Source: Clostridia bacterium (GTDB lineage: Bacteria; Bacillota; Clostridia; Oscillospirales; Acutalibacteraceae). Taken from it: 36,944 nt of DNA. Location of the stretch: positions 1 to 36,944 of the forward strand of contig JAFWYP010000044.1 of NCBI GenBank assembly GCA_017517665.1, given 5' to 3'. The translations under genes and the position numbers were made by a program. Positions 18,306 through 35,658 of this stretch are shown piece after piece. Numbering within the stretch: the stretch's first letter is position 1; each line of letters starts with the position of its first letter. The notes below the pieces were generated by a model, which ran no database searches, was not told the DNA's origin, and was given only the letters and a program-made list of their open reading frames with translations.

Positions 18306-18524
18306 ATGACCGAATACAGCGGATACAAATACCCGCAGCGACAGTATCAGAAGCGTGAATACTGCCCCGTCACAATCACTCCTCTGCCCGCAAACCCCGT
18401 TGCCGCAATGCTGTATGTGCCCATGCAGATTGATACAACAATGTTTGACGAAATGAAGGCTTTTGAATGCGGAACACTGTTTCCCGTTCTAAACAAGCCT
18501 TTTGCAGGGAAGTGCTGCCGATGA
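18306..18524 (+). CDS. cotJA: spore coat-associated protein CotJA
   Basis: A 72-residue protein of the CotJA family: a short proline-containing N-terminal half, then the conserved block MLYVPMQ...FDEMKAFECGTLFPVL..PF. In Bacillus subtilis cotJABC is a mother-cell operon making a spore coat component, and clostridia have the same gene order. The start is ATG 18306 with AAAGGA 9 bases upstream. A CATAGTAT at 18257-18264 resembles a sigma-E -10 element, but I see no convincing -35. The stop overlaps the cotJB ATG (ATGA). Confidence 0.88.
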   Translation: MTEYSGYKYPQRQYQKREYCPVTITPLPANPVAAMLYVPMQIDTTMFDEMKAFECGTLFPVLNKPFAGKCCR

Positions 18525-18772
18525 ACAACAGAGAAGCAATGCTCAAGAAATTAAATGCAGCGCAATTTACGCTTTGGGAAATCCACCTTTATCTTGATAC
18601 TCATCCCTGGGATTTACAGATGGTGGAGCATTATCACAAATGTCACTCAAAATATAAGCTTATAAAGGCTGAATTTGAGGAAAAATACTGTCCTCTCACC
18701 ACAAAAAAAGCACAGGGTGCAGAATGGCTTAAAGGTCCGTGGCCCTGGGAATTTCAGGAGTGTGATTGCTGA
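18521..18772 (+). CDS. cotJB: spore coat protein CotJB
   Basis: 83 residues with the CotJB pattern: LKKLNAAQFTLWEIHLYLDTHPWD near the N-terminus, a central helix around YHKCHSKYKLIKAEFEEKY and the tail PWPWEFQECDC. It acts with CotJA and CotJC in the coat. The start at ATG 18521 overlaps the cotJA stop; an upstream in-frame ATG at 18467 would lie within cotJA and is disfavoured. Its TGA overlaps the cotJC start (TGATG), so the three genes were one translational unit before the insertion. Confidence 0.9.
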   Translation: MNNREAMLKKLNAAQFTLWEIHLYLDTHPWDLQMVEHYHKCHSKYKLIKAEFEEKYCPLTTKKAQGAEWLKGPWPWEFQECDC

Positions 18773-18984
18773 TGTTTGTCTATGAAAAAAAATTACAGTT
18801 TCCCGTTAAAATTAAGAACCCCAATCCGAAATATGCTCAAATCATTATTTCTCAATACGGCGGTCCCGACGGTGAATTGGGTGCATCATTAAGATATTTA
18901 AGTCAGCGATTTGCAATGCCTTACGATGAGCTTAAAGGCTTGCTTACCGACATCGGTACATCAGTTGTACTATGGTCTCTTTGA
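18772..18984 (+). pseudogene. cotJC: cotJC, N-terminal part interrupted by a recombinase element
   Basis: The frame opens as a CotJC (manganese catalase family coat protein): MFVYEKKLQFPVKI, IISQYGGPDGELGASLRYLSQ and KGLLTDIGT. After codon 63 (18960) the family sequence, which should continue with the ferritin-like helix EELAHLEM, stops. It is replaced by seven unrelated codons and a TGA at 18984. The breakpoint is at GGTACA, immediately beside the 3' end of a serine recombinase gene on the other strand. The intact family protein is about 190 residues. The remaining two thirds are not in this window, so the gene is either split by an element whose other end is outside or truly deleted. Confidence 0.85.
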
Positions 18985-20639
18985 ACATTTTCGTCCTCAT
19001 TCTTGGACATATTTTTGAGATATTGTTCAGCTTTCGGATAAGAAGAAGAACCTGCCGCCGTTGCAACGGAAGATAATGCAAATTTCCATTTAAACGGCAG
19101 CAGGTTTAATTTTACTGTTATTATATTGTCTTTTGATACAGTCATCGACTCAAGTATCTGTTTTATGAACTCATCATTGTTCTCTCCCAAAGTGAGTATT
19201 GCTTTTGCATACGCAACGCACTCGTCGATTATTTCATCCTTCTTCTCACGGTCAAGTGTGTTGGCAACACAGCTCTGAAGCTCGGTTTTAAGGCTTTCGA
19301 TTTCTCCGTCAAGCTGAACGGACATTTCTTTGAATTCTTCTCTTGTTATGCACTTGTCGAGATACAAATCCACAAGTGCTTTTCTGCGTTCGGTTTTCTT
19401 GTCGAACTGCTCTTTTTTATGCTCAAAATCATTGTTGTCGCTTTGCAAAAACACCTCTTCAAGCTGTTTTTTAAACAATAAAAGGAATCTGCTTTTATCG
19501 GCGGTCATCGTTTCGATAACGCTTGTCATAATGTTTTTCAGGTCATCGTGAGCAATATGGTCTATCGAGCAGCCGACTTCTTTGCCTGTCACGGAATCAA
19601 TATGCTTTGTTTTTCCGTTTTGCCTGCGGTTATAGCATTGCCAGTATTTGAAATAATTACCGCTTCTCAACTTTTTATTATGAAACACAAAGCTTGAACC
19701 GCATTCCTCGCAGGTGATTTTACCCGAGAAACAATAACGGTTGCCGAGCTTTTTCTTTTGTTCATCACTCGGAGAACGGCGTTCAAGCTCCTTTTGAGTC
19801 AGCTCAAAAAGCTCACGGCTGATAATCGGTTCGTGGTGGTCACGGATAATAACAAACTCTTCTTCTCCTCGGTTGAGCACCTTTTCGTGGGTTAAATAGT
19901 TCGGAGTCAGGGTCTTTTTCTGCACCAAATCACCGCAGTATTTTTCGTTGCGAAGTGTGCGGAGAATTACTGTGTTAGTCCAGTTTTTGTTGGTGAAGGT
20001 TGGTATTCCTTCCTCTTTCAGTTCTCTTGCTATGGTGCAGGTGCCTTTGCGCTCGATTGTGTACTTATGAAAAATCTTACGGACTATTTCCGCACCTTCG
20101 GGATTTATGTAAATCTTGCCGTCACGCACATCATAGCCAATCATACTCTTACCGAAAACAACGCCTTGCTCCATTCTGCGTTTCTGTCCCCATTTAACAC
20201 GTTCGGAAGTCTTACGGCTTTCCTCCTGTGCGATTGAAGCCATAATCGTTAATCGAAGCTCTGCATCGGGGTCAAGGGTAAAAAGATTATCGTTTGCAAA
20301 GATTACACCAATACCGTATTCCTTGAGCTTTCGGGTGTAATAAATGCTGTCGAGAGTGTTACGGGCAAAACGGCTGATTTCCTTGGTGATGATTAGGTCA
20401 TATTTCTTAAGCTGGGCATCAACCATCATTCGGTTGAATGCCTTTCTCTTTTTGGTGCTTGTACCCGTGATTCCCTCATCAACATAAATATCATAAAGCT
20501 CCCACATCGGATTTCTTTCGATATATTCCTTGAAATAACTCTGCTGACTTGCAAGGGAGTTTGCTTGGTCGTTGCTGTCGGTTGAAACACGGCAATACGC
20601 AGCAACCTTTAATATTCTGTCAGTCTGAAACCTTGTCAT
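18921..20639 (-). CDS. large serine recombinase
   Basis: Site-specific DNA integrase/excisionase of the large serine family. An N-terminal resolvase domain has the nucleophile Ser19 in AYCRVSTD, followed by DLIITKEISRFARNTLD and MASIAQEESRKTSERVKWG. Then comes a recombinase domain (GYDVRDGKIYINPEGAEIVRKIF...), a zinc ribbon (CEECGSSFVFH...CYN...CSIDH, about 335-380), a coiled-coil stretch (about 400-470) and a C-terminal tail. 572 residues. The start is ATG 20639 with GGAGG upstream. The last 12 residues (VPMSVSKPLSSS) are encoded antisense to cotJC, so the C-terminus is created by integration. It runs convergently into truncated cotJC, the arrangement expected for an element inserted there. 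Confidence 0.93.
   Translation of the reverse strand: MTRFQTDRILKVAAYCRVSTDSNDQANSLASQQSYFKEYIERNPMWELYDIYVDEGITGTSTKKRKAFNRMMVDAQLKKYDLIITKEISRFARNTLDSIYYTRKLKEYGIGVIFANDNLFTLDPDAELRLTIMASIAQEESRKTSERVKWGQKRRMEQGVVFGKSMIGYDVRDGKIYINPEGAEIVRKIFHKYTIERKGTCTIARELKEEGIPTFTNKNWTNTVILRTLRNEKYCGDLVQKKTLTPNYLTHEKVLNRGEEEFVIIRDHHEPIISRELFELTQKELERRSPSDEQKKKLGNRYCFSGKITCEECGSSFVFHNKKLRSGNYFKYWQCYNRRQNGKTKHIDSVTGKEVGCSIDHIAHDDLKNIMTSVIETMTADKSRFLLLFKKQLEEVFLQSDNNDFEHKKEQFDKKTERRKALVDLYLDKCITREEFKEMSVQLDGEIESLKTELQSCVANTLDREKKDEIIDECVAYAKAILTLGENNDEFIKQILESMTVSKDNIITVKLNLLPFKWKFALSSVATAAGSSSYPKAEQYLKNMSKNEDENVQRDHSTTDVPMSVSKPLSSS
18950..18977. mobile_element. junction of the recombinase element in cotJC (attachment site half)
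   Basis: CotJC homology ends at GGTACA (18955-18960). Beyond it GTACA TCAGT TGTAC forms a 5-bp inverted repeat around a 5-base centre (18956-18970). This is where an att core for the adjacent serine recombinase should lie. The exact crossover cannot be set without the other junction. Confidence 0.6.
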
Positions 20640-20994: not shown

Positions 20995-21177
20995 CTACCA
21001 AATATTCAGGTTGATATTCTCCAGATATCTGACCTGTTCTTCGGTCAGTTTTCCCGCTTGGTAGAGGGATTGACACAAAGCATTCACAACGATTTTATCG
21101 AATTCTTCCTGCTCGTGTTTGTTTAGTTGTATTTCGGGCTTTTCAATCATTATGTATTGCTTCTTTTTCCGCGCCAA
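20995..21177 (-). CDS. small protein typical of serine-recombinase elements
   Basis: A 60-residue charged protein with a basic start (MARKKKQY) and a C-terminal helical hairpin-like stretch LCQSLYQAGKLTEEQVRYLENIN, similar in feel to short SHOCT-like proteins encoded near element recombinases. The function is unknown. I start at TTG 21177, 8 bases after GGAGG. The in-frame GTG at 21186 falls directly on the Shine-Dalgarno. It precedes the recombinase by 355 bases on the same strand. Confidence 0.5.
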   Translation of the reverse strand: MARKKKQYIMIEKPEIQLNKHEQEEFDKIVVNALCQSLYQAGKLTEEQVRYLENINLNIW

Positions 21178-21225
21178 TCCCTCCACCTCCTTTAGATTTT
21201 ATTCTTTTGCGGGATTAAATATAAC

Positions 21226-21744
21226 TTATTTGATTCCAAGGGTTTTGACCGCTTCGGGACGGATGAGTTTACCGTCAACACGCTGGAATGTAAGATATCC
21301 GATCATGCCTTCATCCGCATATTTTTCGGAAAGACGCTTTATGTTTCGCTTACCTCTTTCGGCTATCCAGAAATAGCTGAAATCGCCGAAAAGAATGGGC
21401 TTACTGCCGGATTCAATCACACCGAGTTGAGTTGTTGTATACACCGGTTTCCCGAGGAATAAATTCGGCTTACCCGTCACTTTATCCCAAAGATAAAATC
21501 CACTATGGGTTTTGAACTTTTTAAGCTCTGAACATGCCTCTTCGGACATAAGCCATACCGCATTATTTCTGTAGGGAATCTTTAAAGAATAGTAAAGGTC
21601 AATGACATCATCAAAAGAAATTACACCTTTATTTTCAGAAGTTACACCAACCTGAGCCTGATGAATAATTCCGAGGGGCTTGTGTTTTCCGTTACCCTTA
21701 AAAAATGCCTCTTCCTCTTTTCTTTTCATTTTGATAGCAAACAA
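21226..21744 (-). pseudogene. HK97-type phage major capsid protein, C-terminal fragment
   Basis: The frame contains the C-terminal half of an HK97-fold major capsid protein: KRKEEEAFFKGNGKHKPLGI, FDDVIDLYYSLKIPYRNNAVWLMS, LFLGKPVYTT, FGDFSYFWIAERG and QRVDGKLIRPEAVKTLG at the end. The N-terminal scaffolding/delta region and first half of the capsid domain, roughly 200 or more residues, are absent. Upstream the frame runs into a different small gene. No portal, protease or terminase genes are near. This is a prophage remnant, not a working capsid gene. Confidence 0.75.
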
Positions 21745-22210: not shown

Positions 22211-22435
22211 TTATTTTATTCTTTTTACGATATCCTTCCCGTAAACCACACCGAGAAATAAACCGCAATCCCAGTTTATGTGGATGGTGCCCATATCATC
22301 AACGAACCTGACCGTTCCTTTGTCGCCGGCAGTGAGACTTGTGTATGAGTCATCCATATTCACAAGCTCGACTCTTGTCCCGGCCGGATACTTCTCACGC
22401 AGCATTGTGAGCGTTTCTTTTGATATTGTTTTCAT
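22211..22435 (-). CDS. DUF4314-type small protein
   Basis: 74 residues: LREKYPAGTRVELVNMDD then GDKGTVRFVDDMGTIHINWDCG and LGVVYGKDIVKRI. This is the pattern of the DUF4314 family, a small beta-rich protein commonly carried on conjugative elements and prophages of Firmicutes; its role is unknown. Its ATG overlaps the stop of the next gene upstream (ATGA), so the two are co-translated, and a terminator follows. It is one of the few intact cargo genes in this mobile patch. Confidence 0.75.
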   Translation of the reverse strand: MKTISKETLTMLREKYPAGTRVELVNMDDSYTSLTAGDKGTVRFVDDMGTIHINWDCGLFLGVVYGKDIVKRIK

Positions 22436-22794
22436 CTTCTCACCATCCTTATTGCTTTTGAAACAGTCCTCTCGTTTGTTGTCAAATCGATGTAGGTTTC
22501 CTTTGCATCCGTTATGCCAGCCATTGTAAAGCCGTACTTGTCGAATGCTGCAAGAATTGTGATGAGGTCGCTGAAATTGCTTGAAATTGAAAACTCGTTG
22601 ATTTTGTAATAATTCAGGTTTTCGACTATACCTTCAATGTCACGCTCCCAAATAACATCATAAAAGTTTATCAGGTCATTTCCTGCTTCAAGGCTGTGTT
22701 TGTATGCCCAGAACAACCTTATATTGATGTTTTCTTCTGTTGAATTTGCTCTTTCTGCAATCACTTTTTCAATTGCTGGAATTGGTGTTTTCAT
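22432..22794 (-). CDS. conserved element-borne protein of unknown function
   Basis: 120 residues, no membrane segment, mixed alpha/beta look: IPAIEKVIAERANSTEENIN, FWAYKHSLEAGNDLINFYDVIWE, ELITILAAFDKYGFTMAGITD-like centre and an ending ERTVSKAIRMVRR. I associate such proteins, paired with DUF4314 genes, with integrative elements, but I cannot name a function. Start ATG 22794 after a GGGGG run 7 to 8 bases upstream. It is coupled to the DUF4314 gene by a 4-base overlap. Confidence 0.65.
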   Translation of the reverse strand: MKTPIPAIEKVIAERANSTEENINIRLFWAYKHSLEAGNDLINFYDVIWERDIEGIVENLNYYKINEFSISSNFSDLITILAAFDKYGFTMAGITDAKETYIDLTTNERTVSKAIRMVRR

Positions 22795-22899: not shown

Positions 22900-23745
22900 T
22901 TATTGTGAATTACCACAATTTTCCTTGCCGCGATTGCTCCTGAATTTTGAAGGGGACATTCCGCAAAGGGATTTGAACCAGGAGGAAAAATACTGTTGGT
23001 CAGAAAAAGACATTTTTTTGGCAATTTCAGAAAAGGAGTATTTTGTGTTTATCAGATACAGCTTAACTGTTTCCAGTTTTTTTGCGGTGTAATACTGGTA
23101 AGGTGTAATATCAAATTTTTCGGAAAACTTGTTAATTATATGATTTTTTGAGTAACCGAATTTTTTGCACATATCATCAAGCGAAAAGTTTTGCATTATC
23201 TGAGAGTCAAGATATTCTTTCATTAAATAGGCAAGGTCTTTATTTTCGTTTGATGCATAATTACGCAGGGCAATAATCAGTTTTATAACTTCGGGTGTCA
23301 TTTCATCGACAAAAAGAGAATAATTATCGCCGTATACTTTTTTAGCTTTTTCATATATTTCCCCGAAAAGCTCTTCAAACTCACAGTTGTGAAAGACATA
23401 ATCGTGACCGGGCAAATACTGATTAAGCAATATTTCGGCTAACTCTCCGGTTATAGTTATAAAGAATTTATGAAGCGTACTGTTTCTTGCATTGTAATAC
23501 TTATGATTGGTGCCCTTTCTTAATAAGAAAACATCTTTGGGACCAAGATAATACTTTTGACCGTTGTTTTCGAAAACTCCGTTTCCGCTGACAACGAACT
23601 CAATTGCAGTAATTTCTGAAGAGGTTCTTTCAAAAAAGCAATTTTCACTCCAGAAGCTCTCCCCCACAGCGGTAATGTTAAGAGGATTATTATCGTTCAT
23701 GTGAGAATAGTATTCGCAAACATTTTCATATTGTTTCAGATTCAA
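22900..23745 (-). CDS. AraC-family transcriptional regulator
   Basis: An N-terminal cupin-like sensing domain (about residues 25-110, with VSGNGVFENNGQKYYLGPKDVFLLRKGTNH split across its strands) is followed by a C-terminal double helix-turn-helix. The first is NFSLDDMCKKFGYSKNHIINKFSEKF and the second is YSFSEIAKKMSFSDQQYFSSWFK, ending CGMSPSKFR, the classical AraC/XylS signature. It probably senses a sugar or glycan fragment and controls the divergent operon starting at 24,076. I place the start at TTG 23745, 7 bases after AGGAG; a TTG at 23763 in frame is less likely. Its own promoter overlaps one of the palindromes in the shared intergenic region. Confidence 0.9.
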   Translation of the reverse strand: MNLKQYENVCEYYSHMNDNNPLNITAVGESFWSENCFFERTSSEITAIEFVVSGNGVFENNGQKYYLGPKDVFLLRKGTNHKYYNARNSTLHKFFITITGELAEILLNQYLPGHDYVFHNCEFEELFGEIYEKAKKVYGDNYSLFVDEMTPEVIKLIIALRNYASNENKDLAYLMKEYLDSQIMQNFSLDDMCKKFGYSKNHIINKFSEKFDITPYQYYTAKKLETVKLYLINTKYSFSEIAKKMSFSDQQYFSSWFKSLCGMSPSKFRSNRGKENCGNSQ

Positions 23746-23785
23746 AAAAGACACTCCTGTCAATTGTTATAACATCTGTAATTAG

Positions 23786-23799
23786 TGTGATAATTCATA
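23786..23799. promoter_or_regulatory. operator-like palindrome at araC transcription start
   Basis: TGTGA TAAT TCATA is a one-mismatch copy of the two palindromes at 23948-23986. It lies over the expected start of the regulator transcript, a place suited to autorepression. Confidence 0.4.
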
Positions 23800-23947
23800 A
23801 TTTGATTGTATCATTGTTCGTCGAGATATACAATAAAAAATTGAAAAAAGCTTGAAATGATTTAATGTTTTTGTGATTTTTTTTTATAATCAGAATGTAT
23901 TTATGATTGTTTTTGTGAATTTCGCAAACATCACCTCGGTAACTGAT

Positions 23948-23986
23948 ATTTGTGATAATTCACAAATATTGCTGTGATTTATCACA
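23948..23986. promoter_or_regulatory. two tandem palindromic operators before the catabolic operon
   Basis: ATTTGTGATAATTCACAAAT (23948-23967; 8-bp arms) and TGTGATTTATCACA (23973-23986; 5-bp arms) share the form TGTGA-N4-TCACA. Their centres are 22 bases apart, about two helical turns, and the second abuts a possible -35. Confidence 0.6.
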
Positions 23987-24075
23987 TTGTAACTTTATAT
24001 AAAATATGCTAATCTAAAAATATATAATTATAATTTAAAATATATCAGCAACGATCTTGTTAAGGAGTGAGTAAA

Positions 24076-24999
24076 ATGAAAACATGGCAAAAGGCAACCT
24101 TTATAATTGTGCTTGTGGCATTTATCATCGCATCCGTTACCATTTCATTCATTTCAATGGCCAGAGCTCCGTTTGAATATGAATATCAGACGGCTCTTGA
24201 AAGCGAATACTCTGTTGAAGGCTGGGTACTTTTTGGCTTTAACGGAAACAACTCCACCAAAGAAGTACATATTGACTATGTCCGTGATGAAAATGGCAAT
24301 AATCCCGATACCTCAAAGCCTGTTACGGCGGTAGGCAAATTCACTATGAATACCGATGAATATGTTGAGGTTATTCATATCGGCAAAGATGTTGAGTACA
24401 TAGATGAAACCTCGTTCTTCTACTGCAAAGAACTCAAATCAATAGAAGTTGACGAGGCGAATGAATATTACACTTCCGTTGACGGTGTTCTTTACACAAA
24501 GGATATGAAAAAGCTTATGGTCTATCCTATCAAGAAGGTAGAAACTTCATATACAATTCCCGAAGGTGTTGAAAGAATAGGTGCGTGTGCGTTTTATAAA
24601 AATGAAACACTTACAGAAGTTAATATACCCTCAACGCTTAAAGAAATCGGTGATATGGCATTCTTTAAGTGTGAAAAGATATCTCTTGTTACACTTCCTG
24701 ACGGACTTGAAAAAATCGGTTCTGATGCATTCAGCTATTGTCAGGGCATGACACCTGTTATGTATATTCCCGATTCAGTTAAGGAAATAGGCAGTTTTGC
24801 ATTCTATTCCTGTTCAAATCTTAAAGAGTTTTACATGGGAGCGCAAAGCGAAGAGCAAATAACATTCGGTGACACGTGGCTTCCCAAAAACATTAAAAAG
24901 GTTGTTATTAACGTTGCCCCGAAGGAACAATACGGCAAAACCCGTGATGATGCAAACCAAAGAATAAATGAACTTATTGCGGAAGGAGGAGAAAAATAA
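24076..24999 (+). CDS. membrane-anchored BspA-type leucine-rich repeat protein
   Basis: An N-terminal hydrophobic segment (about residues 8-30) directs export and probably anchors the protein. The rest holds BspA/Treponema-type LRR_5 repeats with the pattern IPEGVERIGACAFYKNETLTEVNIP, IPSTLKEIGDMAFFKC, LPDGLEKIGSDAFSYC and IPDSVKEIGSFAFYSC. Such proteins bind host or polymer surfaces, and here it might present the substrate near the transporter. I start at ATG 24076, 8 bases after GGAG, and not at the in-frame GTG 24067. It is the first gene of the operon; its TAA overlaps the transporter ATG (TAATG). Confidence 0.85.
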   Translation: MKTWQKATFIIVLVAFIIASVTISFISMARAPFEYEYQTALESEYSVEGWVLFGFNGNNSTKEVHIDYVRDENGNNPDTSKPVTAVGKFTMNTDEYVEVIHIGKDVEYIDETSFFYCKELKSIEVDEANEYYTSVDGVLYTKDMKKLMVYPIKKVETSYTIPEGVERIGACAFYKNETLTEVNIPSTLKEIGDMAFFKCEKISLVTLPDGLEKIGSDAFSYCQGMTPVMYIPDSVKEIGSFAFYSCSNLKEFYMGAQSEEQITFGDTWLPKNIKKVVINVAPKEQYGKTRDDANQRINELIAEGGEK

Positions 25000-26786
25000 T
25001 GGCAAAATCCGAAAGCAAAGAGAAAATGAATATCTTTCAGGAAATGAAAAAATATTGGAACACTCCTGCTGAAGGAAAACACGTTCCGTATAAAGAATAT
25101 TTCTCAATTTTTGCCGCAGTCGGCGGTGATTACACCCTGAATTATCTCAAGAGCTTCCTTACCTTCGGTACGGGTTGTTATCTGATTGCATATTATTATG
25201 AAATTCCTCTTCTCACATTCAGTGCGATAAACGTATTTTTTATTGCCACAACATATTTCTGGAATCTCCTGTCTATGGGTGTTGATGCCAACTTAGGTTT
25301 TCTTCCCCCAAAAATTGAACGGAAATATAATGCAGTGTATCTGACATTTGCGGTTTTAGGTTTACTGATGCTTATATTTGATTTTTCTTTTATTCTTCCC
25401 GACAGCATTGCAAGCATCATCGATACCCGTTGGAAGGGCATCAACAGCTTCAACATTTTCAAAATCTTCGGTGCACATTTTCTCACAAACGGCTGGAGCG
25501 GATTCAGAAATATTCTTATCAGAAAAAAACTCCTCAAAAAGCTCGGCAGATACAAAATTTTCGCATATGCAAATGTTATTCAATGCCTCATTGTTGTTGT
25601 GCTTATTTGTACTCTTCCGCTTTACGAGCTTCCGCTTACAGACAGAGTGTGGACTCTTTATCTTCTTTTCCAGCTTTACACAATATTCAACTATGTCGGC
25701 TTTACACAGTCTGTTGCAGATAACATCAGCCCCAACCCGCAGGAAAGACTGTATGTACGTTCATTCCCTGTCAAAATCAGCCATTTTGTTCAGAATATAG
25801 TAAACGTTATCCTTCCGACACTCGCAGGCGTAATGTTCCTTGACGGCATCAAGGATATCGGAACTTTCAGATATCTTATACCCATCTTTTTTGTTGTTTC
25901 ATCGGGAGTTATGTTCATAGGACTTCGCAAAATCAAGGAAAGAATTCCGATGCCTCCCATCGAAAACAGGGAATATCTCTCGTTCTGGCACTGTGTTTCA
26001 GGTGTTTTCAAAAACAAATATCTCTGGATTGATCAGATTGCAACCTTGCTCGATTCGCTCGGCAACGGCATGCTTAACATGAAAACAATCCTTCTTATTT
26101 ATACCTGGCGCGAAACCGGACTTATCTTCTCGCTTTGTGAAATACTTTATAAAGTTTCAGGCAATCCCGGAGAATTTCTTGCTCCGTGGATAAGAAAGAG
26201 ATTCCAGTTCAAGCAGCTTATCATTTTTAAATATGTCATCTGCGCAATCAGAAACGGGGTGTATATCCTTGCTATTCTTTTCCTTGGCAACACACATATT
26301 CTTTGCGGCGTTGCAATCTATATTGCAATGTTCTTAAGCAATGTTCTTGAATCTGCAGTTTCGATTGCACAGAAGGATACCAAAATCAGAATCACCGATT
26401 ATCAGATGTATATTTCAGGCGAAAGACTTGAAGAATACCAAAAAATCATCACTTGGTTTACAACACCCATCACAACCCTCGTTTCTCTCATTATTCCGCT
26501 TATGTTCTACCGTGTAGGCTTTACATCTGACTGGGATGTGCTTTATATGAGTGATGTAAGAGTTCAGTGTATGCTTATCGGTCTTGGCTTTGACCTTGTG
26601 GGATATGTGCTGATGACGCTCCCGTATCTGTTTATGTGGGATTTCACGGACGAAAAGCACGCCCACGTTATGGATGTTCTAAAACAAAGAGCAGAAGCAG
26701 GAAAAGCCGCAGCAGAAGGTACTCCGTACAATTTACAGGATGCAGCGGTTAATGCAGAGGCTGCGGTTGTTTCACAGAACGAATGA
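24999..26786 (+). CDS. GPH/MFS-type sugar or glycoside symporter
   Basis: A 595-residue polytopic protein with about twelve hydrophobic segments. The order and spacing are like the glycoside-pentoside-hexuronide:cation symporters of the major facilitator superfamily: GGDYTLNYLKSFLTFGTGCYLIAYYY in the first helix pair, LGRYKIFAYANV, and LLDSLGNGMLNMKTILLIYTWRETG after the central loop. It is longer than the usual 450 or so residues because of an N-terminal charged extension and an Ala-rich C-terminal tail (EAGKAAAEG...). It probably imports the glycan-derived product processed by the neighbouring enzymes; the substrate is unknown. Translationally coupled to the LRR gene. Confidence 0.78.
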   Translation: MAKSESKEKMNIFQEMKKYWNTPAEGKHVPYKEYFSIFAAVGGDYTLNYLKSFLTFGTGCYLIAYYYEIPLLTFSAINVFFIATTYFWNLLSMGVDANLGFLPPKIERKYNAVYLTFAVLGLLMLIFDFSFILPDSIASIIDTRWKGINSFNIFKIFGAHFLTNGWSGFRNILIRKKLLKKLGRYKIFAYANVIQCLIVVVLICTLPLYELPLTDRVWTLYLLFQLYTIFNYVGFTQSVADNISPNPQERLYVRSFPVKISHFVQNIVNVILPTLAGVMFLDGIKDIGTFRYLIPIFFVVSSGVMFIGLRKIKERIPMPPIENREYLSFWHCVSGVFKNKYLWIDQIATLLDSLGNGMLNMKTILLIYTWRETGLIFSLCEILYKVSGNPGEFLAPWIRKRFQFKQLIIFKYVICAIRNGVYILAILFLGNTHILCGVAIYIAMFLSNVLESAVSIAQKDTKIRITDYQMYISGERLEEYQKIITWFTTPITTLVSLIIPLMFYRVGFTSDWDVLYMSDVRVQCMLIGLGFDLVGYVLMTLPYLFMWDFTDEKHAHVMDVLKQRAEAGKAAAEGTPYNLQDAAVNAEAAVVSQNE

Positions 26787-26808
26787 CAATATGTTCTGAG
26801 GTGATTAT

Positions 26809-27750
26809 ATGAAATTTATAAATGTCTTACAGAATAAGAGTGTATATGCAGACGGCATCCACGATGATACAAAAGCTTTGCAGGCTTGCATTGATGAACT
26901 GAAGGATGGCGGAACAGTTTATTTTCCCGACGGTACATATCTCGTTTCTGCTGCCCTTATTTTCTATTCGTATCAGCATCTGAAGCTTTCGGACAATGCA
27001 ATCATTCTGAGAAGCGATAAAAGCGAACCGCTGACAAGATATCTTCTTGCTTCCTATTCCGAACCTGAATGGGGAGCTTATGAAGGTACTCACGATGTTG
27101 TTATTTCAGGCGGTATTTTTGACGGCAACAAAAATCTTGATGAATGTATTACCCTTGTAAACACAGTTCATTGCAGCAATATAACCATTGAAAACTGCAG
27201 TTTCCGTCATTGTGCTCATTGGCATTATATTGAAATTAACGGAACAGAGAACACAACAGTTCAAAACTGTATTTTTGACGGTCCCTCATACACATTCAAG
27301 ACAGATATCCTTTTCAACGAGCAGATTCAGCTTGATATGTCAAGGCACGGCTCATACGGTCCCGTTTACAATTGCGACGGAACGCTGATAGATTTCAAAT
27401 CCGATGATACGGTTTGCCGTAATATTACCATAAGAAACAATATTTTCAAATGTGACGGCTTCCCGGGAGTTGGTCATCACGGCGATATTGACCATCACAA
27501 TATTCTTATTGAAAACAACATATTTGACGGTCCTTCAGGCAGAATCGGCAAAAGCAGAGGCTACATTTTCTTCAGACCTATGGTTTACGACCTCACAGTC
27601 AGAAACAATGCATTTCTTGCTCCCGAAGAAACCGATTCACCGAGCTACGGCATAATCCACGAAAATGATGACCCTTCTGCTCTGAAAACGGAAAATAACC
27701 TCTTTATCGGCAGAATCGATAAAGAGATCATTAAGGGGATGAAAGAATGA
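26809..27750 (+). CDS. cytosolic right-handed beta-helix protein (pectate-lyase-3-like)
   Basis: 313 residues without a signal peptide. The N-terminus DGIHDDTKALQACIDEL, followed by GGTVYFPDGTYLVS, is the Pectate_lyase_3 / GH28-like opening. Then come repeated N-x-x-I-x-N-x-x-F coils (ITIENCSF, TTVQNCIFDG, ITIRNNIFKCDG, ILIENNIFDGPSG, LTVRNNAF) that build a right-handed parallel beta-helix. Proteins of this fold cleave or epimerise glycans. A cytosolic location suggests action on the imported oligosaccharide. It lies 22 bases after the transporter and overlaps the PHP gene by four bases. Confidence 0.82.
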   Translation: MKFINVLQNKSVYADGIHDDTKALQACIDELKDGGTVYFPDGTYLVSAALIFYSYQHLKLSDNAIILRSDKSEPLTRYLLASYSEPEWGAYEGTHDVVISGGIFDGNKNLDECITLVNTVHCSNITIENCSFRHCAHWHYIEINGTENTTVQNCIFDGPSYTFKTDILFNEQIQLDMSRHGSYGPVYNCDGTLIDFKSDDTVCRNITIRNNIFKCDGFPGVGHHGDIDHHNILIENNIFDGPSGRIGKSRGYIFFRPMVYDLTVRNNAFLAPEETDSPSYGIIHENDDPSALKTENNLFIGRIDKEIIKGMKE

Positions 27751-28742
27751 GTTGCAAAGGATACAAGTGGTATTCGGGCGTTCCTCATTGCCACACGGTT
27801 GCATCCGACGGCGGTCTGACATTGGAACAGGTTATTGAAAAAGCCAAGAAAAGTAAAATTGATTTCCTTATAATCACGGACCATAATGTTAACTGCAAGG
27901 AGTTCCCCGATGTTGACGGACTCACCCTTATTTACGGTGCCGAGTTGACAAAACACGGCGGTCACTGTAATATGTGGGGCGTTAAAGATGTTATTGATAA
28001 AGAGGATTATGACACCTGCGAAACCTACGAGGATTTTTTAAGGGTTAAGACAAAGGCAGAAGAGCGCGGAGCGGTAATCTGTATGAACCATCCTCATTGC
28101 AAGCAATGCCCGTGGAGATGGGAAATGAAAGCTGAAGATGTGGATGTTCTCGAGGTATGGAACGCACCGACACACTTTGATAATCTCGAATGCACCGAAT
28201 GGTGGCATGAGCAGTTGAGAAACGGACACAAGCTGCCCGTTGTCGGCGGCAGCGATTATCACAGAGATTATGTTGTCACCAATCTTTTAACCTGGCCCGT
28301 TACTTATGTTTATGCAAAATCAAACTCTCCCGAAGATATTTTAGATGCTATCATTAAAGGTCGCACCACAATATGCTTTGATGTCGGCACAACATTTATT
28401 GATATTGTCAGCGGCGATTCCGTGCTTGGCGATACTGTTACACTTACCGATGAAACAAGTGTTACAATCAATGTTAAAAAACTTCGCAGAAAACATAAAC
28501 TGATTGTTTTTGACCGTGACGGCGAATGCTTCTCATACACGGCAAAAAAGACAGAAGATTATTCTGTTACTCTGCCTGTGAAAAAAGAAGGTTTTATGTG
28601 TGCTCATGATGTTTTTGAACCCGGATTCATATACAGTAAAATCCACGATGTTGCAATCGCATCCAGAATTCCCGAACAAAAGGGAATGGATTTACCTCCC
28701 TTGATTTTTGCTCAGAGCGGTGCAATATATTTTGAAAAATAA
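27747..28742 (+). CDS. PHP-domain (CehA/McbA-like) metallohydrolase
   Basis: 331 residues. Metal-binding motifs of the PHP family are VPHCHTVASDG (His14, His16), IITDHN, a glutamate in YGAELT, MNHPHC and GGSDYHRD, in the order found in PHP phosphoesterases. A C-terminal beta-rich part (from about 230) resembles the extra domain of CehA/McbA-type hydrolases. These enzymes cut phosphoesters or carbamates/amides; a phosphoester role would suit the three phosphatase-type genes next to it. The ATG overlaps the beta-helix stop (ATGA). Confidence 0.85.
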   Translation: MSCKGYKWYSGVPHCHTVASDGGLTLEQVIEKAKKSKIDFLIITDHNVNCKEFPDVDGLTLIYGAELTKHGGHCNMWGVKDVIDKEDYDTCETYEDFLRVKTKAEERGAVICMNHPHCKQCPWRWEMKAEDVDVLEVWNAPTHFDNLECTEWWHEQLRNGHKLPVVGGSDYHRDYVVTNLLTWPVTYVYAKSNSPEDILDAIIKGRTTICFDVGTTFIDIVSGDSVLGDTVTLTDETSVTINVKKLRRKHKLIVFDRDGECFSYTAKKTEDYSVTLPVKKEGFMCAHDVFEPGFIYSKIHDVAIASRIPEQKGMDLPPLIFAQSGAIYFEK

Positions 28743-28773
28743 AAAGTCAGTTCAATCTTTTGGAGGTACTGAA

Positions 28774-29760
28774 ATGAAAAACAAGAAAAAAGTCATACTT
28801 ATTGCTGTTTCTGTTATGCTTGTTCTCGGAAATATCGCAGGCGCTTTTGCATTGTATTTCACAAGATATCATAAAGACGAAAATGACACAGAAGAATTAT
28901 ACAGACAGAATGTTGCTTCCGTCGGCTACGAAAACACAGTTGAGACCGCATATCCGTTTACCGATGTTTACGGTATCATAAACGAACATTTCAGATCCGA
29001 ACTACCCGAAGGCAAAACCGAAAAGAAGGTTGCCGTTATCGGTTATGACGGCTGCCGCGCAGATATAGTTGCAGAAAAACAGGATAACGGTGCAATCAAC
29101 TATCTGCTTAACAACGGCGCTTCAATAAATCTCACATACTGCGGCGGCGTGAATTATCCTGCCAAAAACACTCAGGCAACTTCAACTGCTCCCGGCTGGT
29201 GCTCAATGCTTACGGGTGTGTGGTCTGATGTGCACGGAATAACCGGCAACGGAATAACAAAAACGGTTGAGCCCAAAATGCTTATGACAACCCTTGTTGA
29301 AGAGGGCATTATTGACAACGCCGCTTTCATCACAAAGTGGAAAGGTCACTTCACAAACAGCGACTCAACATATAAAGATGAAAAAGCCTATTGCGAGGAA
29401 AACAACATCGATATTGATTTCAATCTTCGCAAGAATAAAGCAGATATTCACACAGGTGCCATGGAAGAAATAACAAGCACGGATTGTGCTGATTTTGTGT
29501 TTATTATTTATGAAAACACAGATTCGGCAGGTCATGATTTCGGATTTACGTTCAATAACCCCGTTTATAAAGACGGATTCAGAACCGAAGATAATTACGG
29601 CTACGAAGTAATCAAAGCCATCGAAGCAAGAGAAACTTATGAAACGGAAGATTGGCTCATTATCGTCACTTCGGACCACGGCGGAATCGGCACAGGTCAT
29701 GGCGGACCGAGCATTCAGGAAAGAATGAACTTTGTTGTTATGAACAAGAAATGGGACTGA
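28774..29760 (+). CDS. membrane-anchored alkaline-phosphatase-superfamily phosphodiesterase
   Basis: An N-terminal anchor (about residues 6-28) exposes a catalytic domain outside the cell. Superfamily motifs are VIGYDGCR (Asp92), the nucleophile region STAPGWCSMLTG (Thr138 likely), GVWSDVHGI, YENTDSAGHDFGF (Asp and His ligands), TSDHGG and GHGG. This is the layout of type I phosphodiesterase/nucleotide pyrophosphatase (NPP-like) enzymes. I start at ATG 28774 after TGGAGGTACTGAA; the longer frame from 28708 overlaps the PHP gene and has no anchor at its start. 328 residues. A weak terminator follows. Confidence 0.82.
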   Translation: MKNKKKVILIAVSVMLVLGNIAGAFALYFTRYHKDENDTEELYRQNVASVGYENTVETAYPFTDVYGIINEHFRSELPEGKTEKKVAVIGYDGCRADIVAEKQDNGAINYLLNNGASINLTYCGGVNYPAKNTQATSTAPGWCSMLTGVWSDVHGITGNGITKTVEPKMLMTTLVEEGIIDNAAFITKWKGHFTNSDSTYKDEKAYCEENNIDIDFNLRKNKADIHTGAMEEITSTDCADFVFIIYENTDSAGHDFGFTFNNPVYKDGFRTEDNYGYEVIKAIEARETYETEDWLIIVTSDHGGIGTGHGGPSIQERMNFVVMNKKWD

Positions 29761-29769
29761 TACAAATCG

Positions 29770-29798
29770 GAACCTCCCTGACATAATCCGGGAGGTTC
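29770..29798 (+). terminator. hairpin after the first phosphodiesterase gene
   Basis: A 9-bp stem GAACCTCCC / GGGAGGTTC with an 11-base loop is followed by TTCCTTTG. The U-run is weak, so it may only reduce transcription into the next gene. Confidence 0.55.
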
Positions 29799-29840
29799 TT
29801 CCTTTGATGCAACTTTTATAAAGATACGGGAGAAATGACC

Positions 29841-30755
29841 ATGTCAAGAAAATACTCACATGTAATAGTTATAGGCGTTGACGGTGCAGGCAGTTGGTTC
29901 AAAGATGCCGACACACCGAACTTTGACAAAATATTTGAAAACGGTGCAATCACATACAAAGCCCTTTCTTCAAAACCTACCATAAGTGCAGAGTGCTGGG
30001 GTTCAATGCTCATCGGTGTCGGTCCCGAAATTCACGGGCTTACAAACAGCATAGTTTCTTCTGTTCCCTATGATGTGAATTCTCCGTTCCCTTCACTTTT
30101 CAGAAGAATCAGAGAAGCATATCCCGATGCAGTTCTCGGTTCATATTGTGACTGGAATCCCATCACCTACGGTATAGTTGAAAACAATATCGGTGTTTCC
30201 CACGCCACGGCACACGATACCGAGCTGACACCGATTGTCTGTGATTATATCCGTGAAAACAAACCCGACTTTTTGTTCGTTCACTTTGACAGCATTGACG
30301 GTGCAGGACATTCAACGGGTTACGGACTTCCTGCTTTTATCGAGCGTATTCACGAGGTTGATAAGCTTATCGGAGATGTTTACTCTGCAGTTAAAAATGC
30401 CGGAATGCTTGAAGATACAATTTTTATTGTTATTGCCGACCACGGCGGCACCAATGATGAAAACTGCAAGGGTAGTCACGGCGGATGGACAGATGAAGAA
30501 AAATATGTAACCTTTGCCGCAACAGGCAAAGGAATAAACAAAACCGAAATAGAAGAAATGAATATCCGTGACCTTGCCGCCATTGTGCTTTACGCTATGG
30601 GAATTAAGGCTCCCGAATTTGATGAAAACGGCTGGACATCGCAAATTCCCGAAGGTCTGTTTGCTGATTATGACGGAGAATACCGTGATATTTCTCATCT
30701 CACGGGTGCGGCACCGAGGATTTCGAAAACTCATCACGAATCCGAGCTTGTTTAA
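29841..30755 (+). CDS. cytosolic alkaline-phosphatase-superfamily phosphodiesterase
   Basis: A paralogue of the preceding enzyme without signal or anchor, 304 residues. Motifs are VIGVDGAG (Asp14), TISAECWGSMLIG where Ser49 aligns with the Thr nucleophile of the neighbour, HFDSIDGAGHSTGYG, IADHGG and GSHGG. It would finish inside the cell what the anchored enzyme begins outside, or act on an imported phosphorylated sugar; this is inference. I start at the second ATG, 29841, because GGGAG is 8 bases before it but only 2 bases before the first ATG at 29835. Confidence 0.8.
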   Translation: MSRKYSHVIVIGVDGAGSWFKDADTPNFDKIFENGAITYKALSSKPTISAECWGSMLIGVGPEIHGLTNSIVSSVPYDVNSPFPSLFRRIREAYPDAVLGSYCDWNPITYGIVENNIGVSHATAHDTELTPIVCDYIRENKPDFLFVHFDSIDGAGHSTGYGLPAFIERIHEVDKLIGDVYSAVKNAGMLEDTIFIVIADHGGTNDENCKGSHGGWTDEEKYVTFAATGKGINKTEIEEMNIRDLAAIVLYAMGIKAPEFDENGWTSQIPEGLFADYDGEYRDISHLTGAAPRISKTHHESELV

Positions 30756-30773
30756 GGAGAAACAAATTTCATT

Positions 30774-31592
30774 ATGCTGAAAATAAAGAAAACCACAATA
30801 AAAATAGGTCTCGAAAAACCGCTGAAAATTCTTCACATGACAGACTCACATCTCCCGTTTTATTGTGACAGTGACTCTGAGAATATGATAAGACAGGGAA
30901 AAAAACGAAACGAGAAAAGAAGTGTACGAAATCTCAACAAGCTGATAAAGTACGGTGAAAAGAATTGCGATCTGATTGTTCATACCGGAGATCTTATCGA
31001 CTACATATCAAAGCCTTGCGTTGAATTCGCAAAGGATTTTTTAAAGCGGGATAAGTTTCTTTTCGTTGCAGGCAATCACGAATATGCAAAATACGACGGC
31101 ATAAAAGAGGATATGGCTTACCGTCTTAACAGTTTGGAAGAAATCGGCGGATATCCTGTTAATATATTCTTTAATTCTCATATCATCGGCGGTGTTAACT
31201 TTGTCGGAATAGACGACGCTTATCATCAGGTGGAATATGAACAGCTTGAAATGCTTAAAGAGGAAGTAAAGAAAGGGTATCCCATCATTCTTTTTATGCA
31301 TGCTCCTCTATATGAAAATGAGCTTTATAAGAAGAGTTATGAATTCTGGAACGGTGAAATATGCCTGCTTGGCTCTGACTCAGATGTTCACCCCGAGGTC
31401 AAAGGTGATATAGCAGAGCCCACAGAAGCTTCAAAGGCATTTTACGAATATGTTACCGGTGAACCTGTAATTAAGGCTGTGCTTGCAGGGCATCTGCATT
31501 TTGCTTTTGAAAGCATACTGCCCGGTGGTACGATGCAATATGTAACAAACCGTGGTGACAGAGGAAGCGCAAGAGAGATAACAATATTATAA
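30774..31592 (+). CDS. cytosolic calcineurin-like metallophosphoesterase
   Basis: 272 residues with every metal-binding motif of the family: MTDSH (Asp24, His26), HTGDLID (Asp73), AGNHE (Asn101, His102), FMHAPL and AGHLHF. Calcineurin-like phosphoesterases hydrolyse phosphomono- or diesters with two metal ions. No signal peptide is present. It follows the second alkaline-phosphatase-type gene by 18 bases. The GGAG at 30,754-30,757 is 14 or so bases from the ATG, farther than usual, but no better start is seen. It ends the run of tightly spaced plus-strand genes. Confidence 0.85.
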   Translation: MLKIKKTTIKIGLEKPLKILHMTDSHLPFYCDSDSENMIRQGKKRNEKRSVRNLNKLIKYGEKNCDLIVHTGDLIDYISKPCVEFAKDFLKRDKFLFVAGNHEYAKYDGIKEDMAYRLNSLEEIGGYPVNIFFNSHIIGGVNFVGIDDAYHQVEYEQLEMLKEEVKKGYPIILFMHAPLYENELYKKSYEFWNGEICLLGSDSDVHPEVKGDIAEPTEASKAFYEYVTGEPVIKAVLAGHLHFAFESILPGGTMQYVTNRGDRGSAREITIL

Positions 31593-31603
31593 AAAGAAAC
31601 AAT

Positions 31604-31632
31604 CAGGCGCAACAATATATCTGTTGCGTCTG
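31604..31632 (+). terminator. hairpin after the catabolic operon
   Basis: CAGGCGCAACA (31604-31614) pairs with TGTTGCGTCTG (31622-31632) through 11 bp with one G-U and a 7-base loop. No T-run follows, so it may be an mRNA 3'-end stabiliser or attenuator rather than a full terminator. Confidence 0.5.
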
Positions 31633-31668
31633 AAGTATATAATAACACACATCAGGAGGTTTTGCACT

Positions 31669-31719
31669 ATGTTTTTTCAGAATGCTTTGCATTTGAGAGA
31701 AAAGTTCAGTTGTTTTTAA
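31669..31719 (+). CDS. possible 16-codon small ORF with strong ribosome binding site
   Basis: AGGAGG is 9 bases before ATG 31669, and the frame MFFQNALHLREKFSCF ends at TAA 31719. It lies between the operon-end hairpin and the promoter of the secreted phosphoesterase. It could be a leader peptide, an antimicrobial-like or regulatory peptide, or the ruin of a longer gene; nothing decides between them. Confidence 0.3.
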   Translation: MFFQNALHLREKFSCF

Positions 31720-31738
31720 TCAAAGCGTGTGATATAAT
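31710..31738 (+). promoter_or_regulatory. promoter of the secreted metallophosphoesterase gene
   Basis: A perfect TATAAT (31733-31738) with an upstream TG (extended -10) and a 17-base spacer to TTGTTT (31710-31715). The transcription start is expected near 31,745. Confidence 0.6.
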
Positions 31739-31810
31739 TAACTCAACAAATAATAATTTGTGGAGGCTACAGTCTGACTTTATGAATTATACAAACAAGG
31801 AGAACACCAA

Positions 31811-33115
31811 ATGAGCATAATATCAAAATTAATAAGTTCCATTGTTGCCGCATTTACTTTTTGGGCATCTCTTATAACCACATCCGTTTCGGCACCTGTT
31901 CCTGAAATCAAGCAGGATGATTTCGTTCCAGTTATGCGTTTTGTTGCTTCAAGCGACACCCATATACAAACTCTCGGCGATACGGGCAGCAAAAGACTTA
32001 CTGCCATGATAAAATCGGCTTACACCATAAGTGAAGCTGATGAGGATTATAAAAATTTAGATGCAGTGGTGATTTCGGGTGATATCACCGATAACGGCTT
32101 ATTAGGGTCATTTTTTGCATATGCAGGAATAACGAATAATGAAATCCGTGAAGGCACAGAATGTCTGGCGGTAGTAGCAAAATCTCATGACAGCTATACA
32201 TTTTCAAACAACAGTCTTAAAGTTTTTACAGGAATAACCGGTCAGGAAACTGATTTTCACAGAGTTATCGGCGGTTTTCATTTTATCGGTATCTCCCGTT
32301 CCGAAACACTTAAGCATTACACCGAAGAACAGGTAAAATGGCTTGATGAAAACATTGCCGACGCAGTTGAAGCTGACCCCGAAAAGCCTGTTTTTGTTTT
32401 TCAGCACGAGCACGTAAAAGATACTGTTTACGGCAGCAGCGAAACCGACGGTTGGGGGCTGGATGTTTTCACCGACGTGCTTTCAAAGTATCCTCAGGTG
32501 GTGCATATTTCAGGACATTCCCATTTTCCCGCAAATGACCCCAGAGCAGTATGGCAAGGAGAATTCACAGCTATAAATGACGGAGGACTTGCTTATTTCG
32601 AACTTGCTGTTGACGGCAAAAACGGACAGTTCCCCGAGGATAAAGACAGAATGTCTCAGGCTCTCATTGTTGAAGTTGATGCCAACAACAGGGTTCTTGT
32701 GAAAGTTCTTGATGTTGAAGCGGGAAAGATTATGAGGGAGTTCCTCATTGACAACGTAACCGAAGAAAACAAGGTCAGATATTCATTTGAAACAAGAAAA
32801 GAAGATGCTTCTGCTCCGATTTTCTCCGAAAGTGCAGAACTCCATTATGAAAAAAAGGGGTTAAAGCACTACATAACCGTACCTCAGGCAACTGTAAGCG
32901 AAGACAACGAGGTCTTTATTTACAGAATTTATGTTATCAATCAAAACGGTAAAACAGTCCATGAAGATTGGGCATTTTCTCAGTATTTCTTCTCCGACAT
33001 GCCTGACAGCATAACCTTTGACGGTTTTGTTACATTAAACACAAACTTTACCGTAAAAGTTTGTGCCGAAGACGTATGGGGAAACACAAGCGATTATCTG
33101 GAGATAAAGGTTTAA
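31811..33115 (+). CDS. secreted metallophosphoesterase with altered GNH motif
   Basis: 434 residues. A signal peptide (about 1-28, ending TSVSA) leads to a calcineurin-like domain: SSDTH (Asp49, His51), ISGDITDN (Asp91), FQHEH (199-201) and SGHSHFP (236-238). The third motif, normally GNH(D/E), reads AKSHDSY (123-129), so the metal-bridging Asn is replaced by Ser125 while His126 stays. From about residue 320 a beta-sandwich-like C-terminal region follows. The start is ATG 31811 after GGAG. Activity may be reduced or altered. It has its own promoter and is probably co-regulated with the locus. Confidence 0.82.
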   Translation: MSIISKLISSIVAAFTFWASLITTSVSAPVPEIKQDDFVPVMRFVASSDTHIQTLGDTGSKRLTAMIKSAYTISEADEDYKNLDAVVISGDITDNGLLGSFFAYAGITNNEIREGTECLAVVAKSHDSYTFSNNSLKVFTGITGQETDFHRVIGGFHFIGISRSETLKHYTEEQVKWLDENIADAVEADPEKPVFVFQHEHVKDTVYGSSETDGWGLDVFTDVLSKYPQVVHISGHSHFPANDPRAVWQGEFTAINDGGLAYFELAVDGKNGQFPEDKDRMSQALIVEVDANNRVLVKVLDVEAGKIMREFLIDNVTEENKVRYSFETRKEDASAPIFSESAELHYEKKGLKHYITVPQATVSEDNEVFIYRIYVINQNGKTVHEDWAFSQYFFSDMPDSITFDGFVTLNTNFTVKVCAEDVWGNTSDYLEIKV

Positions 33116-33187
33116 AATCCGTCAAATTAACGGCATTACAAAAATACAACTACTGCATCAAATCATATCACACTCAAAAAAACACTG

Positions 33188-33229
33188 AACCACCTCTTAT
33201 CTATGCTTTCTGCATCGATTGAGGTGGTT
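33188..33229. terminator. bidirectional hairpin between convergent genes
   Basis: AACCACCTC (33188-33196) pairs with GAGGTGGTT (33221-33229) across a 24-base loop. On the minus strand it is followed within five bases by TTTTTTT, so it mainly serves the gene ending at 33,248; the plus side has a short T-run. Confidence 0.65.
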
Positions 33230-33247
33230 TCGCATTATATATTACTG

Positions 33248-35587: not shown

Positions 35588-35658
35588 ATCAAAAAATATT
35601 GCGAGGTAAATGCTGTTTAGTATTTTAAAATATCCGTTTAATTTATGGAGGTATTGTG

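Follow-up and report, generated by a model that had tools for sequence, protein, structure and literature searches.

Intervening elements that interrupt sporulation genes have so far been known from single genes and few species. Here we describe such an interruption in a stretch of 36,944 nucleotides (hereafter the window; assembly GCA_017517665.1, contig JAFWYP010000044.1, positions 1 to 36,944) from a Clostridia bacterium of the family Acutalibacteraceae, order Oscillospirales, in which the mother-cell coat gene cotJC is split by an element that carries a large serine recombinase (LSR). In our numbering of genomes (G), contigs (C) and loci (L), the window is G000:C47:1-36944, from an assembly of 68 contigs that is 88.7% complete.

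The closest described systems are summarized here as the consulted portions of the cited papers present them. The skin element in sigK of B. subtilis and C. difficile is, like the cotJC element, LSR-bearing and placed inside a mother-cell sporulation gene, and a recombination directionality factor (RDF) acts in the C. difficile element (PMC5025042); sporulation sigma factors are described as controlling the RDF of SP-beta and that of the C. difficile skin (PMC5595907). SP-beta in spsM of B. subtilis is a mobile element in a spore-envelope gene and is excised during sporulation to rebuild that gene (PMC4191935). The gin element in gerE of B. cereus is similar to the cotJC element in being non-phage, in carrying a serine recombinase, and in occupying a small mother-cell gene, which in the case of gin is precisely rejoined, but it differs in using one site, in occurring in some B. 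cereus and B. toyonensis, and in having three recombinases, of which GirC acts together with GirX (PMC5595907). The yin element in yabG of C. botulinum is, like the one in cotJC, a prophage-like element in a sporulation gene, with a recombinase adjoining the 5′ half and a small putative RDF that has a possible SigK promoter; it is described as unique to one strain (PMC10747680), whereas cotJC splits occur at three sites across the order and in other families. In C. difficile R20291, the integrated phage phi027 lies beside a CotJC-like gene, as here, but the consulted part of that paper treats the 678 bp cotJC homologue as a bacterial gene downstream of attR and not as half of a gene (PMC11222575).

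Several features set the cotJC elements apart from these systems. Unlike skin, they hit cotJC in a host whose sigK is unbroken, they cross species, and they use three sites with separate LSR families. SP-beta is an active phage and far larger than the cotJC elements, whose ends lie 2.3-52 kb apart, the one in the window retaining a capsid remnant only.

Results

cotJC is split at a precise attachment site

An earlier sequence-only reading of the window had proposed that the cotJABC operon is intact up to codon 63 of cotJC, and this is borne out, since cotJA, cotJB and the start of cotJC are open on the plus strand and the PF05067 match extends to residue 63. The features of the locus are as follows.

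18306..18524, plus strand: cotJA, an open reading frame (ORF) with homologues at the equivalent place in relatives
18521..18772, plus strand: cotJB, an ORF starting at the ATG after cotJA, with homologues in relatives
18772..18960, plus strand: 5′ part of cotJC, codons 1-63, matching PF05067
18955..18960, plus strand: core GGTACA of the left attachment (att) site, attL, from the codon-by-codon alignment of N- and C-terminal pieces
18961..18984, plus strand: attL arm from the element, with the seven foreign codons that end the truncated cotJC; TCAGTTGTACTATGG next to the core
18921..20639, minus strand: LSR of 572 aa, matching PF00239, PF07508, PF13408 and PHROG 95 (integrase)

Residues 1-63 of the truncated protein match positions 1-64 of PF05067 (E 1.1e-19; 2.4e-18 in the search of its own genome), and codons 1-64 are 97% identical to the intact cotJC of genomes G020 and G022. 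The family sequence ends at GGTACA, after which seven foreign residues lead to the end of the frame at 18984. Host DNA extends up to the GG of codon 62, the later bases probably coming from the att arm of the element, and TCAGTTGTACTATGG adjoining the core is identical in G036, G035 and G002. The 572-aa protein has the Resolvase, Recombinase and zinc-ribbon Pfam domains, each above its cut-off, and falls in the LSR class (phiC31/SpoIVCA type, about 450-700 aa). The sequence-only reading had placed the beginning of this gene, on the opposite strand, exactly where the family sequence stops; the stop at GGTACA stands, but the LSR is oriented with its 3′ end, rather than its start, toward cotJC, its frame crossing the core antisense and running 34 bases into cotJC. 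A sporulation gene is therefore split at 18955-18960 by an element with a site-specific recombinase, the arrangement of a gene-intervening element (skin, SP-beta/spsM, vfbin, gin and yin type). The first proposal, of a coat gene of the mother cell interrupted by an LSR element, is supported, and in the window both the split and its precise att site are certain.

The crossing of the core by the LSR frame (18921-18963 in the window) is found in 59 of the 76 loci where the recombinase adjoins attL. The C-terminal tail of the LSR in those 59 loci is antisense host cotJC, so that excision would change the tail, and the crossing may be incidental because the tail frames differ between groups.

Recombinase families dedicated to cotJC

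With an alignment of 16 LSRs from the site used in the window (site B, see below) as the query, a scan of named genomes gave 463 relatives, and we kept the best 80; two of these (G036, G320) are members of the query alignment, and the loci of G063 and G002 are also among them. A piece of cotJC lay in the fetched stretch for 77 of these 80, at most 200 bases from the LSR in 71 and 2.4-8.6 kb away in six, while flanking DNA was present and a cotJC match absent in three (L207, L220, L234). As the same junction also recurs in other genomes of the genus and the order, it is not the product of chance, and it is nearly certain that the window element belongs to a family of cotJC-specific LSR elements. 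The hosts of the LSR relatives include Oscillospiraceae, Lachnospiraceae, Pelotomaculum and others, among them the isolates Dorea sp. 5-2, Roseburia sp. 1XD42-69, Parablautia muri D42-62 and bacterium D16-51, as well as Intestinibacillus massiliensis, in which the cotJC piece is 7.8 kb from the LSR. Bacterium D16-51 has insertions at two sites of the gene (sites A and B, see below).

The LSRs of a further site (site C) form a separate family, about 60% identical to the first member, with a match at E 1e-130 in 50 of 394 genomes of the order. The best 30 of these loci held a cotJC piece in 28 cases (22 of 24 without the six alignment members), and one of the two misses, L346 (G341), has cotJC pieces elsewhere on its contig, outside the stretch taken. 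As a side observation, the site-B recombinase frame of G049 (L034 7977-10181) runs into a DNA alkylation repair-like protein, a label read from the sequence, and in G164 the recombinase and the alkylation repair-like gene are separate genes.

Three sites are used across the order

PF05067 matched in 333 of the 394 genomes of the order, and 128 of the 333 lacked a full-length-scoring match (best match weaker than about 1e-45), some of them perhaps cut by contig ends; G154 (7.2e-44, single match) was left out of this list. Eighty of the 128 were searched again for pieces, a non-random choice that preferred genomes with at least two matches and of good quality, which gave at least 150 matches. 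The internal ends of the pieces cluster at profile positions 33-48, 63-80 and 150-161 and their internal starts at 12-30, 48-66 and 143-149, and thus there are three recurrent sites, A at about codon 32, B at codon 62 (that of the window), and C at about codon 136. In a comparison with solved manganese catalases (best match KatB, Alr3090), each site adjoins residues that correspond to metal ligands of these enzymes, namely E35, E65/H68 and E136, respectively.

Where both pieces of a junction lie on the same contig, 31 of 33 are collinear (same strand, correct order); these come from 26 genomes, and their pieces are 2.3-52 kb apart. The other 36 junctions have their pieces on different contigs. 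A single cotJC holds two elements in G077, G210 and G346 and three in G259, whose four cotJC pieces are open and in order over about 69 kb. An LSR was found in or beside the element for each split examined closely; for the split in G059, whose contigs contain 2.6 kb and 0.16 kb of the element, no recombinase was found in these stretches, and G058 gave a weak partial recombinase match only, at a contig end.

The two sides of the junctions have the core in common and the same codon phase. Among 20 unshifted site-B pairings, two of which use one G063 3′ piece, only the GG of codon 62 is common to all. A palindromic core that would allow both orientations was considered and rejected, because these shared bases are GG only and not palindromic. 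The pairs of G377, G312 and G259 are shifted by 1-3 codons, with a more distant LSR at the 3′ side or inside. All cotJC pieces, 90 of 90 in the named loci and 70 of 70 in the fetched loci, are bounded by the gene ends or by site A, B or C; a stop or frameshift inside a piece would give an extra break, and since there is none, the pieces are whole. The collinear halves and the shared core were seen in the junctions of other genomes, G000 itself being without an assembled 3′ half.

Relatives within the genus

Within the genus, PF05067 matched in 17 of 45 genomes, and the uninterrupted cotJC that the sequence-only reading had asked for in relatives was found. The same junction with its LSR occurs in G036, G063, G002, G035 and G062, and both halves of cotJC are present, on separate contigs, in G002, G062 and G063. 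In G000, G035, G036 and G061 the piece ends at codon 64 and the 3′ half of that gene is unmatched; G036 also carries a full-length cotJC paralogue. In G061 (C14, 13178 and 49539), pieces 1-33 and 26-64 lie about 36 kb apart on one strand and are followed by a site-B recombinase, so sites A and B are probably both used there.

The 5′-half contig G032:C39 and an element right-end contig, G002:C90, each share with the 3′-half contig G032:C46 an exact overlap of 141 bases that starts at the core (L048, L047, L069): the assembly forks at the att core, and the contigs involved come from two genome bins. We considered these overlaps as proof of mixed excised and integrated states and rejected them, because the 5′ half is unforked and a second copy of the 3′ half fits equally well.

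Content and right end of the element

The remaining features of the window element are as follows.

20995..21177, minus strand: ORF of 60 aa, candidate RDF, directly upstream of the LSR
21196..21225, minus strand: match to a sigma-E-like promoter, GTTATATT-14-AATAAAAT, preceding the small ORF (hand-entered consensus)
21226..21744, minus strand: 3′ remnant of an HK97-type major capsid gene (PF05065 103-278 of 280, E 4.6e-43; PHROG 10, major head protein)
22432..22794, minus strand: phage-type ORF (PHROG 21141, E 4.8e-36)
22900..33115, no single strand: probable cargo, from Pfam matches of ORFs
33187..33230, plus strand: terminator-like hairpin, 3 mismatches, 0 expected in shuffles
33248..35479, minus strand: right-end gene A, pectate-lyase-like, 743 aa (PF12708), 94% identical to G063:C4 237-2456
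35656..36944, plus strand: right-end gene B, cut by the contig end, 96% identical to G063:C4 2637-4202

The capsid remnant (172 aa), which is 60% identical to a 364-aa homologue in the G036 element, is the sole structural gene among the window ORFs searched in Pfam or PHROGs, and the assembled part of the element thus lacks the complete structural and packaging genes of a temperate phage or satellite. In the closest element, that of G036 (L043 4096-12496), more of the capsid gene is kept, together with a gene like D5/primase and small genes of HTH type, labels that were read from the sequence. The element lineage may descend from a capsid-bearing phage satellite. The cargo region encodes an AraC regulator, a BspA-type LRR protein, an MFS sugar transporter, a pectate-lyase-like protein, a PHP protein (below the Pfam cut-off), two phosphodiesterases and two metallophosphoesterases, and it probably belongs to the element, judging from the match of the right end to G063.

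In G063, attR and the 3′ part of cotJC come after a homologue of gene B. The right end of the window aligns with G063 nearly without gaps over 3.7 kb at 93% identity, and the core of G063 at L110:4348 corresponds to about position 37370 of the window. Because the last two genes of the window are 94-96% identical to the G063 genes that precede attR, we predict that attR lies about 0.4 kb beyond the contig end and that the element, which no single contig spans, measures about 18.4 kb. The sequence-only reading had concluded from the absence of the distal part of cotJC that either the element would be longer than 18 kb or the gene is dead; the distal part is absent from the window, and a size of at least 18 kb holds if the right part belongs to the element, as the G063 match suggests. 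A caution comes from G033, in which an intact cotJC is followed 3.4 kb downstream by the pair of genes A and B, and the pair in turn by unrelated DNA without attR, so the pair can also sit outside such an element.

The order at the right end, namely hairpin, right arm, GTAGGTAC or a close form, and then EELxHLEM, is the same in G063, G062, G002 and G022, and the hairpin of the window differs little from the hairpin that directly precedes attR in G063, G002 and G022. The sequence-only reading had proposed a search for a 3′ part of this type preceded by the core; the sister genomes have EELxHLEM preceded by GGTAC, while the window's own genome is without it. Right arms are partial in G036:C32 and G020:C24. 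The former (108074-108139) is a 66-base match at 94% on a contig without a cotJC match, the 5′ half and the recombinase of G036 lying on C11. G022:C24 carries an intact cotJC and, farther along, another 3′ half as part of a right end (L035 1287-1907, 16961-17404), and G020:C24 carries an intact cotJC with a degenerate right end downstream; the distance is 6-15 kb in these two genomes, with cargo genes between. In G002 (C46/C5/C90/C60), attR with the 3′ half is present three times, alongside another right end that is partial. Duplicated right ends seem to build up at this locus.

A candidate partner of the recombinase and the sporulation genes of the host

In 90 of 103 site-B loci, which are partly redundant, an iterated profile search found a small ORF (about 60 aa) immediately before the LSR and on its strand. 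It had no match in Pfam or the PHROGs and no meaningful one in NCBIfam, and its position and size suggest that it may be the RDF. The host genome encodes SpoIIGA, sigma-E and an unbroken sigma-K gene. SigE (340 bits) and SigK (292.6 bits) each score above one NCBIfam cut-off and below another, and SpoIIGA (151.6 bits) is under its cut-off of 209.55 and adjoins SigE. By gene content alone, the host would be a spore former.

Discussion

We consider it likely, though by no means settled, that the feature in the window is attL of an integrated mobile element that uses cotJC as its dedicated attB and is excised in the mother cell in a programmed manner. In this model, attB would consist of the cotJC codons next to a metal ligand, and cotJC would stay split in growing cells. 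During sporulation, the sigma-E RNA polymerase of the mother cell would transcribe the small gene and the LSR, and the two products would recombine attL with attR, releasing the element as a circle and rejoining cotJC in frame; since the mother cell dies, the germ line would keep the element. The split, the att sites, the uninterrupted LSR frame, the fit of the halves in frame in relatives, the preference of the LSR family for its site and the sporulation sigma factors of the host are observed; we infer the position of attR, the role of the small protein, the control by sigma-E and excision itself, and the model draws on the precedent of the RDFs of SP-beta, the C. difficile skin and yin.

The divergence of the recombinase tells something about the age of the insertions. 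Between species of the genus, the synonymous difference is 0.21 for the LSR (4 loci) versus 0.80 for the host gene (6 loci), and in some of the closest pairs elsewhere in the order the LSR is likewise less diverged than the host gene, which argues that the element moves between hosts and that many insertions are young. The comparison with skin made in the sequence-only reading therefore holds as to an LSR-borne element in a sporulation gene, but the element is not a fixed relic. Two measures of selection on the halves were dropped. The median dN/dS of split loci is 0.038 (N halves) and 0.029 (C halves), as low as in the corresponding codons of intact loci (0.041 and 0.038), and it was not kept as proof of selection after insertion because most of the host divergence predates insertion. 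The stop-free codons 1-62 of 62 named N halves were set aside because those halves had been chosen by an open match there.

Several observations weigh against programmed excision. No sequence of the excised form was seen, the attP pattern giving 0 matches in viral contigs, and because the LSR is younger in its hosts than the species split, intact halves may mean just recent insertion. Two of the 33 same-contig junctions are not collinear, namely those of G220 (opposite strands) and G147, a one-contig genome whose halves (G147:C1 198620 and 873266) lie on one strand, 675 kb apart and in the wrong order, which is a rearrangement beyond what the plain excision of a short element could account for. 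The promoter evidence is uneven as well. The best sigma-E-like score upstream of the small ORF has a mean of 12.19 over 29 non-redundant loci of 40, as measured with a hand-entered matrix and with automatically picked start codons that are plainly wrong in several of the 29. None of 200 permuted matrices reaches this value (mean 11.16, standard deviation 0.22), and the reversed and complementary sequences give 11.34 and 11.20. The region before cotJA, intended as the positive control, gave p<0.05 in 16% of 98 redundant loci, so the promoter test is weak, and the site-C LSRs have no sigma-E enrichment, 101 of 200 permutations reaching their score. In addition, searches of G000, at 88.7% completeness, found no cotJC 3′ half, attR pattern or right-arm DNA, and C. 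difficile cotCB/cotD mutants, as far as the consulted part of the report goes, show only reduced catalase activity (PMC11222575).

This mutant phenotype would fit an alternative in which cotJC is a harmless landing pad, a dispensable gene with conserved active-site codons, into which elements insert without programmed excision, cotJC being off in the carriers and the insertions recent and in fast turnover. The low divergence of the LSR compared with the host gene agrees with this, as do the 128 of 333 matching genomes of the order that lack a full-length-scoring match (some perhaps cut by contigs), the 28 of 45 genomes of the genus without a cotJC match at E 0.001, and the missing sigma-E signal of the third-site LSRs. 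We nevertheless regard it as rather doubtful, because none of the 160 pieces (90 from named and 70 from fetched loci) has a break other than at the three sites, up to three elements occur in one gene with the pieces open and ordered (G259), and sigma-E-like promoters precede the candidate RDF. The element could also be an ordinary prophage or satellite with stress-induced excision, the rejoining of cotJC being a side effect without a link to sporulation. The capsid gene and the primase-like gene of the G036 element (the latter label from reading the sequence), the PHROG matches of window ORFs, and LSR relatives in 581 phage records, all under 60% identity, speak for this. Such an origin of the excision is unlikely in our view, since a cotJC piece was found in 6 of the best 80 related LSR contigs of IMG/VR (one of them weak) versus 77 of 80 in genomes, and among 36 elements whose two ends lie in a single stretch, 15 measure less than 5.2 kb and contain, by reading and not by family search, the LSR and few other genes.

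A narrower doubt concerns the window copy itself, which might be dead if a deletion at the right end in G000 had removed the 3′ half, making rejoining impossible there. The 3′ half, attR and the right arm are absent from the assembly, the truncated capsid gene can be taken as a sign of decay, and the extra attR/3′-half copies in G002, G020 and G022 show that the locus rearranges. The sequence-only reading had named the absence of any 3′ half from the complete genome as one outcome that would count against it, and the half is absent here; but the assembly is incomplete, and the contig stops about 0.4 kb short of the place of the G063-type attR, inside a gene that is 96% identical, so that an assembly break suffices and a dead copy appears quite improbable. 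A broader statement, on which we are evenly divided, would be that cotJC in gut Clostridia is commonly in pieces that need joining in the DNA itself, with a separate LSR family for each site beside a metal ligand of this catalase-like coat protein (near E35, E65 and E136) and up to three elements in one gene, all of which would be removed in the mother cell in each round of sporulation.

An intervening element in a sporulation gene is a known arrangement; the target gene, its use at three sites, the presence of several elements in one gene and the wide occurrence look new. Our search of open-access full text, with subscription papers and bioRxiv preprints outside it, found no paper with both cotJC and 'intervening element', and split cotJC or manganese catalase as an integration site was not met with in the titles and opening lines of abstracts of the open-access literature.

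In this work, cotJC appears as a recurrent target across the order and in other families (Lachnospiraceae, Pelotomaculum), with three fixed sites and dedicated recombinases. This provides two large groups of recombinases whose att sites can be inferred, together with a small protein as their candidate partner. If excision is programmed, some cotJC genes annotated as broken would not be broken, and the elements would represent a general strategy in which mobile elements hide in genes that are needed by the dying cell alone. If it also holds that all elements are removed from cotJC in each round of sporulation, the terminal cell line would be a safe harbour for mobile elements.

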